This document shows positions 4,617 through 11,386 of a stretch of 34,062 nucleotides of DNA, in pieces. The stretch is from Akkermansiaceae bacterium (lineage in GTDB: Bacteria; Verrucomicrobiota; Verrucomicrobiia; Verrucomicrobiales; Akkermansiaceae). The stretch spans positions 1 through 34,062 of the forward strand of contig JAKMGP010000198.1 of the NCBI GenBank assembly GCA_022424905.1, given 5' to 3'. The position numbers and the translations under genes are program-made. Position 1 is the stretch's first letter, and each line of letters opens with the position of its first letter. The notes under the pieces were generated by a model. It was not told the origin of the DNA, did no database searches, and was given only the letters and a program-made list of their open reading frames with translations.

Positions 4617-7607
4617 ATGCTCATTCGTTTTATTTTCACTCTCATTCTTGGTCTTTCCGCACTCAGTGCGAAAGTCAGCTTCAATGACGAAATTCGCCCC
4701 CTATTATCCAATACTTGTTACCGCTGTCATGGTCCGGACGAAGAGGATCGTAAGGCCAAGCTTAGACTTGACACTCGTGAAGGGGCTACGAGGGAGCACG
4801 AGGGGTTTGCCGCTATTTTGCCTGGCAATATCGAAGACAGTGAGTTGATCTACCGTATTGTTACGGATGATGAGGATGAAATGATGCCGCCTCCGGGAAA
4901 GGGGGAGCGATTTACTAAGGAACAAATCGAACTTTTCAAGCGGTGGATCGAAGAAGGAGCGGAATACGAGGTCCACTGGTCATACGCAAAGCCCGTTCGA
5001 GCTGAGATTCCTCGGGTCAATGAAACCATGATGAAGGTTCGTAATCCCATAGATGCATTTGTTCTCAGCCGACTCGAGAAAGAAGATCTTCAGCCTAGCA
5101 AGGAAGCTGATCCTCATACCTTAATTAGACGTGTTGCCCTCGATCTCACCGGACTTCCACCCACTAAGGAGGAAGTCGACGTATTCCTCGCGGATGAGAG
5201 TGCCAAGGCATACGAAAATTTAGTCAACCGTCTTCTCAACAAGCCTGCGTTCGGTGAACACTGGGCTCGTATGTGGCTGGATCTCGCTCGCTATGCGGAT
5301 TCAGCCGGTTATGCGGATGACCCTGGTCGCACTATTTGGGCCTATCGAGATTGGGTTATTCGTGCCTTCAATGAGAACATGCCGTTCGATCAATTCACCA
5401 TTGACCAAATCGCTGGTGACCTAGTTTCCAACCCGACAGAAGATCAACTCATTGCAACAGCGTTCCACCGCAATACTAAGACGAACAACGAAGGCGGAAC
5501 GAGTGATGAAGAATTCCGTAATGCAGCCGTCGTTGATCGTGTCAATACGACTATGGCAACTTGGATGGGGACCACAGCAGCTTGTGCCCAGTGTCATACC
5601 CACAAATATGATCCGATCAGTCATGCTGAGTATTTTCAAATGTTCGCCATTTTCAATCAATCGGAAGACGCCGATCGACGTAATGAAGCTCCAATCATTC
5701 AGGTGATGGGGGATCAGAATAAGAAACAAGCCGCTAAGATTTCCGCCGAGATCGCAAAGTTGGAGATGGAAATGAAATCTGCGAATAAGCCCGACCTTAA
5801 AGCTTTTGCGAAATGGGAGGCGGATTTGAAGCCCAAAGCGAGTCGTTGGCATGTTCTCATGCCAAGCAAGATGGCTGCGAGTTCCGGTGCGAACTTAAAA
5901 GCAGATTATGACGGCTCTATCCTCGTGAGTGGAAAGACAGCCGAAACGGATGATTATACTATTGCCGCCAAAAATAAGCTAAAAAAAATCACCGCAATCA
6001 AGATCGAGGCCCTCGCATATGATAAACTGACTAGCGGAGGCCCAGGCCGAAGTGGAAACTTTGTCCTTAACGAGATCGAACTCAGCAGCGGTAAGAGTAA
6101 AGCTTCTTTTTCTAATGCCTCTTCGACCTATGATCAGAATAAGTTCGAAGCGGCCTCCGCGATCGATGGTGATTCTGGCAATGATTCTGGTTGGGCTGTT
6201 GGTGGATCACTAGGGAAAGATCATCATATCGTGGTGGAGTTAGACAAACCTCTCGAAGGGGAGGATCTTAACCTCAAACTGCTGCAACGCTATCCCAACC
6301 ATGCTCTTGGCCGCTTTCGGGTTTTGGTAACTGATTCTGCAGCTCCTTCCACTGCGCTTTCCTCCGAGACGATTGCGATCCTCAAAAAGTCTCCTGTAAA
6401 ACGGAGTGCTGCTGAGAAGACCAAGTTAATTGCTGTTTATAGCAAGACCAATCCCAATATAATTGCTCAGACCAAGAAGCTTGCGGATCTCAAAAAGCAA
6501 CTGGGCACCGTGAAGCCTCTCACCTCGGTTCCCATCATGCGTGACTTGCCCAAAGATAAGCGTCGTAAGACTCACATTCAACTTCGGGGGAGCTATTTGA
6601 GTCTTGGTGAAGAGGTGAGCCCCGGAGTGCCTCAAGTCTTTGGCTCGCTGCCCCAAGGCTCGAATCCCGACCGGCTCGCCATGGCGAAATGGTTAGTGGA
6701 CCAAGAAAATCCTTTGACCGCTCGCGTGGTTGCTAATCGGTTTTGGGAGAATCTCTTTGGGGTTGGGCTCGTTCTTACAAGCGAGGAATTTGGATCTCAG
6801 GGCGAACGGCCTTCTCATCCAGAACTCCTTGATTGGCTTGCGGTCGAGTTTATGGATAGGGGATGGGATGTTAAGAAATTTCTCCGCCTTCTTGTCACTT
6901 CATCAGCCTATCGCCAGAAGTCTCATGTTAGTGATGAGATGGCCGCACTGGATCCTGACAATCGTCTGGTCGCTCGCGGCCCACGGGTCCGACTTTCCGC
7001 AGAAATGATTCGAGATCAGGCTCTTGCGGTTTCTGGATTGTTGAGTTCGAAAATGTATGGTGTTCCGGTTCGGCCGCCCCAACCTAATCTTGGTCTCAAG
7101 GCTGCCTTTGGAGGCGGAACCGATTGGAGCACAAGCTCGGGCGAAGATAAGTTCCGTCGCGGCCTATACACGAGCTGGCGTCGTTCTAGTCCGTATCCTT
7201 CCATGGCGACCTTCGGAGCTCCTAATCGCGAGGTTTGTACTGTGCGACGTGGTAATACTAATACGCCTTTACAAGCCCTTGTGACCTTGAACGACCCTGT
7301 CTATATTGAAGCCGCTCAAGCTCTTTCTCGACGAATGGTGGAGCAAAAAGGGACGGTTGCTAATATGATCAAACATGGCTTCCAACTCTGCCTTTCACGT
7401 CCTCCTAACGAGGTCGAAACTTCCCGATTGATCGCTTTCTACGATTCCACGCGCAGCAAATATGCCGCCGACCGAAAGCTCGCGCAGGAAATGGCTACCA
7501 ATCCCATCGGCCCAGTTCCTAAAGATGTTGATATCGTAGAGCTCGCCACCCTGACGGTTATCTCAAATGTTCTTCTCAATCTCGATGAGACTTTGATGAA
7601 GCGTTAA
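4617..7607 (+). CDS. PSCyt1-PSCyt2-PSD1 protein (DUF1549/DUF1553) with discoidin-like insert
   Basis: Large exported protein (996 residues) of the planctomycete cytochrome family. Signal peptide about 1-18 (ends LSALSA). The PSCyt1 domain has the c-type heme motif CYRCH (34-38) with a likely axial Met in EMMPPP. The DUF1549 region (about 141-345) has LTGLPPT, HWARMWLDLARYADS and a second CAQCH (323-327). DUF1553 follows from about 690, with NPLTARVVANRFWENLFG and later RRGNTNTPLQALVTLNDP. Between them, residues about 410-575 resemble a discoidin-like carbohydrate-binding fold (SGNFVLNEIEL, AIDGD, LLQRYPNHALGRFRVLVT). These genes are characteristically followed by DUF1501 genes, as here (23-base gap). 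Biochemical role is undefined; a heme-dependent or sugar-degrading envelope function is often proposed. Confidence 0.9.
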   Translation: MLIRFIFTLILGLSALSAKVSFNDEIRPLLSNTCYRCHGPDEEDRKAKLRLDTREGATREHEGFAAILPGNIEDSELIYRIVTDDEDEMMPPPGKGERFTKEQIELFKRWIEEGAEYEVHWSYAKPVRAEIPRVNETMMKVRNPIDAFVLSRLEKEDLQPSKEADPHTLIRRVALDLTGLPPTKEEVDVFLADESAKAYENLVNRLLNKPAFGEHWARMWLDLARYADSAGYADDPGRTIWAYRDWVIRAFNENMPFDQFTIDQIAGDLVSNPTEDQLIATAFHRNTKTNNEGGTSDEEFRNAAVVDRVNTTMATWMGTTAACAQCHTHKYDPISHAEYFQMFAIFNQSEDADRRNEAPIIQVMGDQNKKQAAKISAEIAKLEMEMKSANKPDLKAFAKWEADLKPKASRWHVLMPSKMAASSGANLKADYDGSILVSGKTAETDDYTIAAKNKLKKITAIKIEALAYDKLTSGGPGRSGNFVLNEIELSSGKSKASFSNASSTYDQNKFEAASAIDGDSGNDSGWAVGGSLGKDHHIVVELDKPLEGEDLNLKLLQRYPNHALGRFRVLVTDSAAPSTALSSETIAILKKSPVKRSAAEKTKLIAVYSKTNPNIIAQTKKLADLKKQLGTVKPLTSVPIMRDLPKDKRRKTHIQLRGSYLSLGEEVSPGVPQVFGSLPQGSNPDRLAMAKWLVDQENPLTARVVANRFWENLFGVGLVLTSEEFGSQGERPSHPELLDWLAVEFMDRGWDVKKFLRLLVTSSAYRQKSHVSDEMAALDPDNRLVARGPRVRLSAEMIRDQALAVSGLLSSKMYGVPVRPPQPNLGLKAAFGGGTDWSTSSGEDKFRRGLYTSWRRSSPYPSMATFGAPNREVCTVRRGNTNTPLQALVTLNDPVYIEAAQALSRRMVEQKGTVANMIKHGFQLCLSRPPNEVETSRLIAFYDSTRSKYAADRKLAQEMATNPIGPVPKDVDIVELATLTVISNVLLNLDETLMKR

Positions 7608-7630
7608 AATCTCAAATTATTTTGCATCGT

Positions 7631-9079
7631 ATGAATCCACAGTTAGAAAGCCTGCAATACAATACACGGCGGCACTTTTTTAAAAAATGCTCCATGGGGC
7701 TCGGCGGAGTTGCACTTAGTGAAATGCTCGCGACTGATGCTATGGGCTTAGAAGCTCCCGATAATCCGCTCCTACCTAAGCTTCCGCATTTTGCGCCCAA
7801 AGCGAAGCGGGTAATCTACCTTCACCTCACTGGATCACCACCCCATCTTGATTTGTGGGATCACAAGCCCGAGCTCGTGAAGCGTGACGGCCAGGAATGC
7901 CCGGACGAATACATTAAGGGGAAGAAGTTCGCCTTTACCTCAGGCACCCCCAAGCTCATGGGTAGCCCGCGTACTTTTAAGCAGTATGGTAAGAATGGTC
8001 TGTGGATGTCCGACGCGATCCCGCACTTGCACGGCGTGGCTGACGATCTCTGCATCATCAACTCGATGACCACTGATCATTTCAATCACGCGCCCGCTGA
8101 GCTTTTCGTGCACACTGGTTTCCAGCAGCCGGGCCGTCCTGCCTTCGGAGCCTGGACGACCTATGGTCTGGGATCCGAAAACCAAAATCTACCTGGATAC
8201 GTAGTTCTTATTTCTAGTGGAGTGCAGCCGAATGGTGGGAAGAGTTCCTTCGGCTCGGGCTTTATTCCGTCTGTTCATCAAGGCGTGCAGTGTCGTTCAA
8301 AAGGAGATCCTGTTCTTTACGTCACTGACCCTCCGGGCATGGATCGTAGCTTGCGTCGCTCGAGCCTTGATACCCTCCGCGATCTTAATGAGGCCGCTGC
8401 CAAAGACTTTGCCCATCCTGAAACCCTGACACGCATGGCACAATACGAACTAGCCTTTCGTATGCAAATGTCAGTCCCCGAGGTTATGGATATTTCGAAG
8501 GAATCGAAGAAGACTCTTGATTCCTACGGCGCTCAACCCGGTGCCTCGAGCTTCGCTAATAACTGCCTTCTTGCGCGGCGCCTTGCCGAAGACGGAGTTC
8601 GTTTTGTTCAGCTCTTTGACTGGGGGTGGGATTTCCACGGGACAAATCCCAAGGAAGACATACGCGATGGACTCACCAATAAATGTGCCACTATGGATAA
8701 ACCCATTGCGGCCTTGATCAATGACCTCAAGGAGCGGGGACTCTTCGAAGACACTCTTATTATTCTCGGCGGAGAATTCGGGCGAACTCCATTCCGTGAA
8801 GGCCGAACGGCCAAGGGGAAAGTGCTTGGTCGTGATCATTTTCCTGATTGTTACACCATGGTCATGGCTGGTGGGGGAGTGAAAGGGGGATACACCCACG
8901 GCGCGTCCGATGATCTTGGTTTTTCGGTGGCCCGTAACAAAGTCCACGTTCACGATTTACAGGCTACTTGGATGCATCTTCTTGGGTTTGACCATGAGAA
9001 ACTCACCTACCGCTTTCAGGGCCGCGATTACCGTCTCACTGATGTTCATGGCAAAGTGGTGAAAGATCTTCTTCTTTAA
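7631..9079 (+). CDS. DUF1501 protein (Tat-exported, sulfatase-fold-like)
   Basis: 482-residue DUF1501 protein, partner of the preceding PSD1 gene and almost certainly co-transcribed. The ATG at 7631 is preferred over the in-frame TTG at 7622 because it gives a compact twin-arginine leader (NTRRHFFKKCSMGLGGVAL). Typical DUF1501 segments follow: AKRVIYLHLTGSPPHLDLWD (about 61-80), MTTDHFNHAPAELF, QLFDWGWDFHG, ILGGEFGRTPF and GRDHFPDCYTMVMAGGGVKGG. DUF1501 proteins are structurally related to the alkaline phosphatase/sulfatase superfamily. Asp/His clusters such as GRDHFPD could bind metal, but the usual sulfatase CxPxR nucleophile motif is not visible. The substrate cannot be inferred. No clear Shine-Dalgarno sequence precedes the start. 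Confidence 0.92.
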   Translation: MNPQLESLQYNTRRHFFKKCSMGLGGVALSEMLATDAMGLEAPDNPLLPKLPHFAPKAKRVIYLHLTGSPPHLDLWDHKPELVKRDGQECPDEYIKGKKFAFTSGTPKLMGSPRTFKQYGKNGLWMSDAIPHLHGVADDLCIINSMTTDHFNHAPAELFVHTGFQQPGRPAFGAWTTYGLGSENQNLPGYVVLISSGVQPNGGKSSFGSGFIPSVHQGVQCRSKGDPVLYVTDPPGMDRSLRRSSLDTLRDLNEAAAKDFAHPETLTRMAQYELAFRMQMSVPEVMDISKESKKTLDSYGAQPGASSFANNCLLARRLAEDGVRFVQLFDWGWDFHGTNPKEDIRDGLTNKCATMDKPIAALINDLKERGLFEDTLIILGGEFGRTPFREGRTAKGKVLGRDHFPDCYTMVMAGGGVKGGYTHGASDDLGFSVARNKVHVHDLQATWMHLLGFDHEKLTYRFQGRDYRLTDVHGKVVKDLLL

Positions 9080-9149
9080 TCGAGAAGGCTTAATTAAAAT
9101 CGTGAGGCATTGGCTTGCCATAAAGTTTCGACTCACTAGTCTATTCACG

Positions 9150-9545
9150 ATGAAAAAACAAATAGCCTGGATGGTCGCAGCTGTGGTGCCCATCCTCCTA
9201 ATTACTACTGCTTCTGCAGATGAGCCTAAGGCTCCTGTAGTGGAAGCTACCGCTGAGGCCAAGATCCCCACGCTCACTTATTATTATTTCGATGGATGAC
9301 CGCTTTGCGCGAAAATTTCGGTCATCGTGAATGACCTCAAAAAGACAAAGGGAAAAGAAATTACTTTCAAAAACGTTCTCGTCGGAACCGGCAAGAGCAA
9401 GGAAGAAATCAAAAAAGCCAAGCTCAAGGGACATGGTATTATCGCTAAGGACAAGAGTGGTAAGCTCGTCGATACGATAGAAGGCCACACCTATGGGAAA
9501 AAAGAAGTGGATGCAGTTGTAGCCAAACTCCTTGCCAAAAAGTAA
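9150..9545 (+). CDS. Probable secreted thioredoxin-like selenoprotein (U-x-x-C), TGA at 9297 read as Sec
   Basis: Two open stretches in one frame, 9150-9296 and 9300-9545, are separated only by TGA at 9297-9299. Read through, they give a 131-residue protein. It has a signal peptide (about 1-23, ending TTASA), then strand TLTYYYFDG, Sec50-P-L-C53, a helix, and a C-terminal part (GHGIIAKDKSGKLVDTIEGH) matching thioredoxin beta3-beta4-alpha. The TGA stands exactly where the first Cys of a CxxC redox motif belongs. Without recoding, the first part is a signal peptide plus an unfinished strand, and the second lacks both. UGA is a normal stop here (folD and the DUF374 gene end in TGA), so it is not globally reassigned. 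Thioredoxin's cis-Pro position appears as H-G-I. No Shine-Dalgarno is seen; TTGCCA (9115) and TAGTCT (9137) are a weak possible promoter. Likely a periplasmic redox protein; partner unknown. Confidence 0.78.
9297..9336 (+). promoter_or_regulatory. Bacterial SECIS-like hairpin downstream of the in-frame UGA
   Basis: GGTCAT (9320-9325) and ATGACC (9331-9336) form a perfect 6-bp stem capped by the five-base loop CGUGA (9326-9330). The loop has G as its second base followed by U. It begins 26 bases after the UGA. Known bacterial SECIS elements need a short apical loop with a G in its first two positions, at a distance of roughly 16-37 bases from UGA, so this fits. A competing outer pairing exists: TGACCG (9297-9302), which includes the UGA, with CGGTCA (9319-9324). 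The stem lies inside the coding sequence, as in fdhF-type elements, where SelB would bind. Confidence 0.65.
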
Positions 9546-9574
9546 GTAAATTCCATCTACTTTACTGCACAAAA

Positions 9575-9601
9575 AACCGGAAGATTTCTTCCGGTTTTTT
9601 T
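9575..9601 (+). terminator. Rho-independent terminator of the selenoprotein gene
   Basis: AACCGGAAG (9575-9583) pairs perfectly with CTTCCGGTT (9588-9596) around an ATTT loop and runs into seven consecutive T (9595-9601). It lies 30 bases after the stop at 9545. This implies that the second half of the recoded reading frame is transcribed as the 3' part of one unit. Confidence 0.9.
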
Positions 9602-9766
9602 GTCCAGCTGAAGAACTTAGCGCTAAAATTACGGGTGCATAGCTCCGAAAGAGAATTGTTTGGTTTTTTGTTATTTCCCATCTAAGACCTTCCAGGTGAT
9701 AGGGGTAAGTTTTCTCGGAGAGATCTGCGAAGAGGCGGAGAACTTTAAGGAGCTTGATTCGTCAAT

Positions 9767-11386
9767 TCAGCGGGCGATTTGCAAAAGGTCTGCCTTTAAT
9801 CTCTGCGATTCCCGGGGGCTTAAATTAAAGGGCTTGGGGTTATCATAGCCGATCCAGACAACAATCACTTTCTCCGGGCTAAGAGAGGCAGCCCAGTGAT
9901 CAGTGCCAGGAAGTGATAAGCCACTTATGAAATCGGGGATTTTTTTCAATCGAGAATGATCTGCGAAAGCGGGGAAGGATGCGGCTGGGCGGGAGAAAAG
10001 TGTCCTTTCTTTTTGGATCAGTTCACGAACGAAGACCGGCGTAGGCCGTGAACCATTTTGGAGAAGGGTGGCGTAAGCAATGGCCAATTCAAGAGGTGAA
10101 ACACTGAGTGTCCCTCGATAAAGATCTTCGCCTTTTCCAAAAGTTCCCTCAAATCCAAATCTTTTGAGTAGTTGGATTGCGTCTTGGGCCTGAAGTTGAC
10201 GTCCAGTGGCGACTGGATTTCCGACAATCGGTAAGTGTCCGCGTTCTAGGGCAATTGTCCCGATCAGAGGCTCAATCATGAGCGGGCCAAGGTCGCGATG
10301 TGAATCAAGAGCCCGGTTGAAGCCGGTAGGTTTTTTTTCACGGCATCCGACCACTCCAAGAAGATCTCCGTTACGGGGGTCGATAGCGATCGAAGCCATT
10401 TGGCATCCATCTGGAATAGAGGTTTCTTGAACAAGCTTTTCAAGTTTACGTTGAAGTTGGAAATCAATTGAGGTTATGACCTCCAAGCCACCAGTTGTAA
10501 TCTGTGTTTCGTTGAGAACAATTTCGAGAGGGCGCCGTAGTACGCGTGTTCCATGATCTGTTTCGAGATCTCCGGCGTTGGGATTACGAAGATCGAGAGC
10601 TTGGGATTTAATTGCATCGGCCTGTTCTGGGCTGATCACTTCAGTAGTTATGAGGCGGTCAAGGACCTCATCACGTTGCCGGACTGCTCCCTCAAGGTTG
10701 CGCCACGGACTACAGGCGTGTGGTGCTCTAATAATCCCGACGAGGAGGGCGCATTGTCCTTTTGTAAGTCTGGAAGTAGGGCGGCCAAAATAATTGAGGG
10801 AGGCTTCTTCGATGCCATTGAAGCCGGAGCCAAAATAAATACGATTCAGATAAGCTGTTAGGATTTCTGATTTCGAGAATTTTGATTCGATGCGGTAGGT
10901 GATTGCAATTTCGAGGAATTTCCGGTTCAAGGATTTCTTCTCCCTTAAATCGAAGGTATTACGTGCCAGTTGCATCGAAAGGGTGGAAGCTCCTTGGGTA
11001 AAGTCGAGGTCTTTGGCATTCCTTAAAGTCGCGCGGGCCAGGCCCCAAAAATCGACACCTTCGTGGTCCATGAAGCGGGCGTCTTCACGGGCAAAAAGGC
11101 AGATTTTTAGAAAAGTTGGAATTTCTTCAAATTCAACAAGGCGGCGGTTGGCGCCGTGGATCGTCCCGATTTCAATTCCATTTCGGTCAAGCAAGACGGT
11201 GCGCTCGGGCATACGGGAGGTTTCGGATAGATCGAACTTACTGGCGTGCCAAGCGTACCAACCAATCATTAACAGAAGGGGAATGAGCAGGGTAAGGCCG
11301 CCTTTCCAGGCAAATTCCCAAAGGCGTTTCAGGCTCATTACCCATTTGATCCAGCGCTGTTGACGATTTTGATAACTCGAACTCAT
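9767..11386 (-). CDS. Class A PBP-type peptidoglycan glycosyltransferase with degenerate transpeptidase domain
   Basis: Inner-membrane peptidoglycan polymerase of 539 residues. One membrane segment lies about 27-47 (GGLTLLIPLLLMIGWYAW). The GT51 domain (about 70-240) keeps its motifs: AREDARFMDHEGVD with catalytic E101, QGASTLSMQLARN and AYLNRIYFGSGFNG. The C-terminal half aligns with class A PBP transpeptidases (FNRALDSHRD, SPLELAIAYATLLQNGS, VVWIGYDN), but the SxxK serine and lysine are replaced (GPLMIEP, 367-373). The SxN region is shortened, and KTGT has become LPGT (492-495). It should still polymerise glycan strands but not cross-link them. It lies 12 bases after the membrane protein gene upstream, in an apparent three-gene operon with an IscA-like gene. 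Confidence 0.9.
   Translation of the reverse strand: MSSSYQNRQQRWIKWVMSLKRLWEFAWKGGLTLLIPLLLMIGWYAWHASKFDLSETSRMPERTVLLDRNGIEIGTIHGANRRLVEFEEIPTFLKICLFAREDARFMDHEGVDFWGLARATLRNAKDLDFTQGASTLSMQLARNTFDLREKKSLNRKFLEIAITYRIESKFSKSEILTAYLNRIYFGSGFNGIEEASLNYFGRPTSRLTKGQCALLVGIIRAPHACSPWRNLEGAVRQRDEVLDRLITTEVISPEQADAIKSQALDLRNPNAGDLETDHGTRVLRRPLEIVLNETQITTGGLEVITSIDFQLQRKLEKLVQETSIPDGCQMASIAIDPRNGDLLGVVGCREKKPTGFNRALDSHRDLGPLMIEPLIGTIALERGHLPIVGNPVATGRQLQAQDAIQLLKRFGFEGTFGKGEDLYRGTLSVSPLELAIAYATLLQNGSRPTPVFVRELIQKERTLFSRPAASFPAFADHSRLKKIPDFISGLSLPGTDHWAASLSPEKVIVVWIGYDNPKPFNLSPRESQRLKADLLQIAR

Follow-up and report, generated by a model that had tools for sequence, protein, structure and literature searches.

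Thioredoxin-like proteins with a U-x-x-C motif, in which U is selenocysteine (Sec), form a large and already known selenoprotein group (PMC13188914, section 7; PMC2398784, Table 2), and several such groups are listed in Table 1 of a 2026 catalogue of 119 families (PMC13188914). The closest described systems include Sec-containing thioredoxin (PF00085), the GOS survey class Trx-like 3 and the thioredoxin-like U-x-x-C selenoprotein SaoT (NF040730). Here we describe a gene at positions 9150-9545 of a 34,062-nucleotide contig of an Akkermansiaceae bacterium (JAKMGP010000198.1, assembly GCA_022424905.1; the whole contig is called the window below) that, judged from its sequence, almost certainly encodes a selenoprotein. 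The product resembles Sec-containing thioredoxin in its predicted thioredoxin fold, in having U-x-x-C at the same place, and in a UGA followed just 3´ by a stem-loop like a selenocysteine insertion sequence (SECIS). It differs in having a signal peptide, a His-Gly in place of the cis-proline, and scores below the Pfam and NCBIfam cut-offs, and in lacking W-C-G-P-C, the thioredoxin motif.

Translation of the frame gives MKKQIAWMVAAVVPILLITTASADEPKAPVVEATAEAKIPTLTYYYFDG-U-PLC-AKI..., running on to a terminal TAA, with a sole in-frame TGA at codon 50 (U50) in the motif U-P-L-C. Under translation table 11 the frame is cut at codon 50, and ordinary gene calling would therefore probably miss the gene. 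By eye, the N-terminus is a signal peptide, MKK...ILLITTASA, with DE following the likely cleavage site. Elsewhere in the window TGA is an ordinary stop, ending three of 22 open reading frames (ORFs) picked from the 61 listed. In all these respects a preliminary description of the locus, which had claimed a single 131-residue frame broken by TGA where the first Cys of a redox motif belongs, a signal peptide upstream, and normal use of UGA nearby, is borne out. The strong terminator that it placed after the gene stands in part: a hairpin, CCGGAAG-ATTT-CTTCCGG, followed by a T run can be read directly in the sequence (9577-9601), whereas a consensus terminator scan of 9050-9700 listed none. Because the T run could also pair with the A run that precedes the stem, the terminator may act in both directions.

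The TGA is widely shared among relatives. Matches to the protein were found in 37 of 192 relatives' genomes, and 35 of the 38 matching rows had exactly one TGA; these 35 rows come from 34 genomes, the window's own bin supplying two of them. In a sample of the order, 49 of 386 genomes matched, with exactly one TGA in 45 of 51 rows from 44 genomes; the other six rows comprise four Cys relatives (G131, G190, G563 and G576), a fragment (G071) and an ordinary thioredoxin (G550). Only residues 82-130 match in G071, near a contig end and with the TGA part missing, and this genome was left out of alignments while still being included in the 37 and the 49. A strict motif places the TGA within U-x-x-C at 29 of 31 loci, with L022 and L026 confirmed on separate reading, and a further reading does so at 41 of 42 loci, where the exception, L118, is an ordinary glutaredoxin with Cys. 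A scan of named genomes returned 41 loci, 40 belonging to the family with TGA and one a glutaredoxin; these 40 come from records titled Verrucomicrobiota or its subgroups, save one titled 'Bacterium' and one Lentisphaerales, and the closest named record is Akkermansiaceae bacterium UBA5688 (L078; 98%). Because the genome collections overlap, these counts are not to be summed. In a phylum sample, two of 387 genomes matched, namely the window's own genome and G530, and 80 pattern-matching stretches of viral contigs included none encoding a relative. G530 (L119, with TIPT) and G550 (with SIPM) were set aside as generic thioredoxins since the cis-proline is present, and L118, a glutaredoxin with TVP, was likewise not counted as family. 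The sole member under a Lentisphaerales title, L113, is a metagenome-assembled genome (MAG) with selB over the cut-off, and could reflect transfer or a mixed bin.

Downstream of the TGA lies a SECIS, present and constrained at silent sites, that the preliminary description had left undescribed. The stem begins 20 nt past the TGA and has 6 bp, the 5-nt loop has G second, and 26 nt separate the UGA from the loop; this stem-loop matches the bacterial SECIS model as given in section 5 of PMC13188914. A 6-base stem and a 5-base loop are found 3´ of the TGA in all TGA sequences read, with the family consensus GGUCAU-CGUGA-AUGAYC. Of 38 unique 60-nt stretches, 35 have the loop CGTGA and three have AGTT(A/G), so that G-U occupies loop positions 2-3 in all 38, as well as in 15 further loci. 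The 17-base motif has a single occurrence in the window when up to two mismatches are allowed. When the 37 stretches that remain after one containing N was dropped were compared, 97.3% of 222 cells could pair, a value reached by none of 500 shuffles, while slid structures gave at most 47.7%. One compensatory swap, from U-A to C-G, is common to L069 and L070, and one more cell is changed on both sides. A lower stem seen in the single-sequence fold was dropped, being absent from the consensus. The strongest evidence for the SECIS is the freeze at silent sites: across 40 unique genes (those with N excluded), the mean relative codon entropy of codons 58-61 is 0.15, as compared with 0.88 at the 33 other codons that are conserved. 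Of those 33, the GGA codon right before the TGA has the lowest value, 0.27. At this position (9294-9296 in the window), 36 of the 39 unique genes that have Gly use GGA, which suggests silent-site constraint 5´ of the recoded stop as well.

Two readings would do away with the selenoprotein. The TGA could be a real stop that yields a 49-residue peptide, with the second half separately started at codon 60, which is indeed GTG in 37 of the 40 unique genes; yet codon 60 is GTT in the other three, and also in L142, L144 and L145, the active site and the first strand would be separated, and Cys relatives read straight through. Among 15 picked same-genus copies, moreover, dN/dS is far below 1 and both halves of the gene are under purifying selection, which argues against a real stop as well as against a pseudogene. 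We therefore regard an authentic stop as extremely improbable. Alternatively, the TGA might stem from a sequencing error, a decayed gene, or genome-wide TGA reassignment. The draft bin to which the window belongs, as contig C325, has 347 contigs and 5.33% contamination, which leaves some room for an artefact, but 44 of the 386 genomes from the order have a one-TGA copy, as do L087 and L116, with record titles that do not mark them as MAGs, and reassignment is at odds with the window ORFs that end in TGA. These explanations are already contradicted by the data and have next to no chance of being right.

The genome also encodes the means of reading UGA as Sec. As the preliminary description had proposed checking, selA, selB, selD and tRNA-Sec are all above curated cut-offs, and the tRNA has the anticodon TCA. 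Among the 192 relatives, selB is over the cut-off in 33 of the 37 matching genomes and in 51 of the 155 others, although the Fisher test p-value overstates this association because the genomes are related; in five further genomes selB is over the cut-off in four. Matches to tRNA-Sec above gathering, found in 112 of the 192, were not used for co-occurrence, because many of the matches at 46-50 bits, with anticodons unchecked, may be other tRNAs. One genome (G172) has two above-gathering tRNA-Sec matches about 700 bases apart (contig C73:119883-119977 and 120585-120679). The window genome's own selD (L077, contig C8) also has an in-frame TGA, in GG-U-ASK, and SelD is therefore probably a selenoprotein here too. 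Further 3´ in selD, a stem-loop with a G-U loop looks possible by eye.

An AlphaFold2 model, made with Cys for Sec, has a plain thioredoxin core. The cis-proline ahead of the third core strand is absent; in its region His95-Gly96 is found in 30 of 30 rows of alignment A2, aligned to the V-P of 8xyw. Thus, of the claim that the protein is unlike classical thioredoxin, the replacement of the cis-proline by His-Gly holds, while the predicted fold is ordinary. The accompanying claim that no named family matches is supported, in that the window protein stays below every Pfam and NCBIfam cut-off. For PF00085 it scores 12.7 bits against a cut-off of 23.5 (best E among the 29 members of alignment A1, 0.0029). 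Weak similarity is seen to clostridial TrxA (NF047697) and to the thylakoid slr1796 model (NF038096), which we take to belong to the cd02950 group; the window protein, with 19 and 15.6 bits respectively, is far below their cut-offs of 140, and at E <= 0.1 they match 28 of 29 and 29 of 29 A1 members, with best E-values of 3.2e-06 and 0.00035. SaoT is likewise a thioredoxin-like U-x-x-C selenoprotein, but only five of the 29 members match it (best E 0.034) and it is not among the matches listed for the window protein. GOS_C (NF045500), whose presence in the library was unchecked, appeared neither among the window protein's matches at E <= 10 nor among the 21 families matched by the 29 members at E <= 0.1.

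The rarity first attributed to such proteins needs softening, given the many thioredoxin-like U-x-x-C selenoproteins already described. By the descriptions in the 2026 catalogue, none of its families clearly equals this one. It is possible, if rather doubtful, that the family is Trx-like 3, a selenoprotein class that would then be known but never modelled. The likeness is one of description: the published account of that class gives U-x-x-C, a weak, distant thioredoxin-like match to cd02950 (E > 0.001), 212 Sec members and marine enrichment (PMC2398784), and the weak matches of all 29 A1 members to NF038096 point the same way. The same account, however, counts 183 Cys homologues, versus the four lipoproteins from one genus found here. 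No paper on the family was found in the literature searched, a scope that leaves outside it most subscription journals, figures and supplements, and 'Verrucomicrob-' does not occur in the available text of the selenoprotein papers searched for that word.

The four Cys relatives (L071, L072, L138 and L140) belong to genus g28 of the same order. These lipoproteins have H-G in common with the Sec proteins and C-x-x-C at the Sec position, and differ by C-F-L-C, by a lipobox-like Cys and by their separate branch. Homologues with U-x-x-C or C-x-x-C were what the preliminary description had proposed looking for, and U-x-x-C is kept, the four distant relatives have C-x-x-C, and the homologues read contain neither a lasting stop nor a residue other than Sec or Cys at this position. 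In a tree with long branches and few columns, from which L078-L095 and identical rows were left out, the four group on a branch of their own, away from 48 Sec rows, and no Cys form was found inside the Sec clade among these 48. One genome, G563, carries both a Sec and a Cys copy. The L140 (G576) Cys lipoprotein gene has GGTCATCG, one codon off the SECIS register of the Sec genes, which could be a relic or chance.

Several observations weigh against a selenoprotein with the properties described here. The gene is present and selB not above the cut-off in G005, G008, G016 and G108, genomes that are 80, 88, 65 and 86% complete, and the same is true of G735, a 1.6-Mb assembly and the fifth of the further genomes. 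Covariation in the stem is thin, with two pairs and three cells showing a change on both sides; the observed number of such pairs is equalled in 27 of 500 shuffles, and that of further pair types in 26. Of the 37 stretches, 5 break the outer pair and 1 breaks an inner pair, and L142 breaks another. The minimum free energy of the window's 60-nt RNA is -10.6 (z -0.31; 64 of 200 shuffles are as good), and the consensus energy is weak at -2.95 kcal/mol. For the protein, confidence in the whole model is moderate, with a mean predicted local distance difference test (pLDDT) score of 77.1 and a predicted template modelling (pTM) score of 0.63, and no neighbouring gene clearly indicates a substrate.

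Taken as a whole, the protein is best read as a thioredoxin-fold U-x-x-C selenoprotein with a signal peptide, two invariant histidines and few Cys counterparts, and without the cis-proline. The parts for recoding and their conservation can be observed, and from these we infer the decoding itself: SelB with Sec-tRNA(UCA) would bind the stem-loop and insert Sec at the codon-50 UGA. The signal peptide would direct the chain out of the cytoplasm and be removed near residue 23, leaving a mature protein predicted to be a minimal thioredoxin domain. There, Sec50 may attack disulfides or other oxidised substrates, with Cys53 resolving the intermediate as a selenenylsulfide, such that the product would probably be an exported thiol/selenol-disulfide oxidoreductase of the cell envelope, as its U-x-x-C and predicted fold suggest. 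The substrate range and the reactivity of Sec50 are probably determined by His113 and by the His95-Gly96 that stands where the cis-proline would be. A different function, which we consider unlikely, is that, in the absence of the cis-proline, Sec50, Cys53, His95 and His113 form a site for copper, zinc, mercury or an Fe-S cluster, making the protein an envelope metal chaperone or sensor with no part in disulfide exchange. Both histidines are invariant alongside U50 and C53, PMC2757866 states that the cis-proline may prevent metal binding to CxxC, and section 7 of PMC13188914 that some selenoproteins may use Sec to ligate a metal. However, U-x-x-C on a thioredoxin fold is usually taken as redox-active, and the recurrent annotated neighbours include no metal-handling genes, save those of c-type cytochrome families, which occur commonly in these genomes.

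The neighbourhood of the gene (Table 1) is not widely kept. The full window gene order is common to close relatives only, and across 44 of 45 loci (L073, without the motif, was excluded) the top neighbour recurs at no more than 11, mostly in the closest relatives. Planctomycete-type cytochrome gene pairs adjoin the gene in at least six arrangements, the window's included: PSCyt2/PSD1 and DUF1501 genes are beside it in the window clade, L060, L064 and L072, and PSCyt3/PSD2-5 and DUF1552 genes in L096 and in the Roseibacillus group, of which L068 was checked with Pfam. The L105/L110 group was rejected as a cytochrome-pair neighbourhood, as Pfam shows ankyrin and amidohydrolase genes there. The background is high, with 49 to 66 PSCyt1 matches in each of seven genomes; because these genes are so common, chance adjacency is likely and no partner is proposed, and the gene looks stand-alone. 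A tie to envelope cytochromes is perhaps a lead, and not a result. The window's own bin contains a second copy of the gene (L041, contig C85:4000-20000), 95% identical and with the same neighbours at nearly equal distances. Since the gene order equals that of the window, we read this copy as a second strain and not a paralogue; two strains or species carrying this locus appear to be mixed in the bin.

Table 1. Features of the selenoprotein locus and its neighbours, in window coordinates.
Feature	Position	Strand	Basis or location
Selenoprotein coding sequence, 131 codons/residues (ATG ... TGA codon 50 ... TAA)	9150..9545	+	Translation with TGA taken as a sense codon
Signal peptide, residues 1-23, A-S-A ahead of likely cleavage site	9150..9218	+	By eye; homologue N-termini similar
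TGA read as selenocysteine 50	9297..9299	+	Frame translation and conservation in relatives
Cys53 of U-x-x-C, likely resolving residue	9306..9308	+	Invariant, 30/30 rows of alignment A2
SECIS stem-loop GGUCAU-CGUGA-AUGACC, apical loop 9326-9330	9320..9336	+	Fits published bacterial SECIS model
Invariant His95-Gly96, start of third core strand, thioredoxin cis-Pro site	9432..9437	+	Alignment, model
Gly112-His113, just past fourth core strand; His113 invariant, Gly112 nearly (A2)	9483..9488	+	Alignment, model
Probable, perhaps bidirectional, rho-independent terminator (7-bp stem-loop between an A run and a T run)	9571..9601	+	Read from sequence
PSCyt1/PSCyt2/PSD1 gene	4617-7607		Upstream
DUF1501 gene	7622-9079		Upstream
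Transglycosylase	9767-11386		Downstream, opposite strand

Given that no Cys form was found inside the Sec clade, a more speculative proposal, and one that we hold to be improbable, is that this is a Sec-only thioredoxin-fold branch that, by losing the cis-proline and gaining the two invariant histidines, formed a Sec-Cys-His-His site outside the cytoplasm whose chemistry is irreplaceable by cysteine, representing either a new envelope peroxidase/reductase or a selenium-ligated metal site. Whatever its activity, the family would join the roughly 119 prokaryotic selenoproteins listed in the catalogue (PMC13188914). With its protein sequences aligned, its SECIS under constraint and a sister family that uses Cys, it allows the role of Sec to be tested directly, and the missing cis-proline, together with the invariant His-Gly, offers a natural test of that proline's role.
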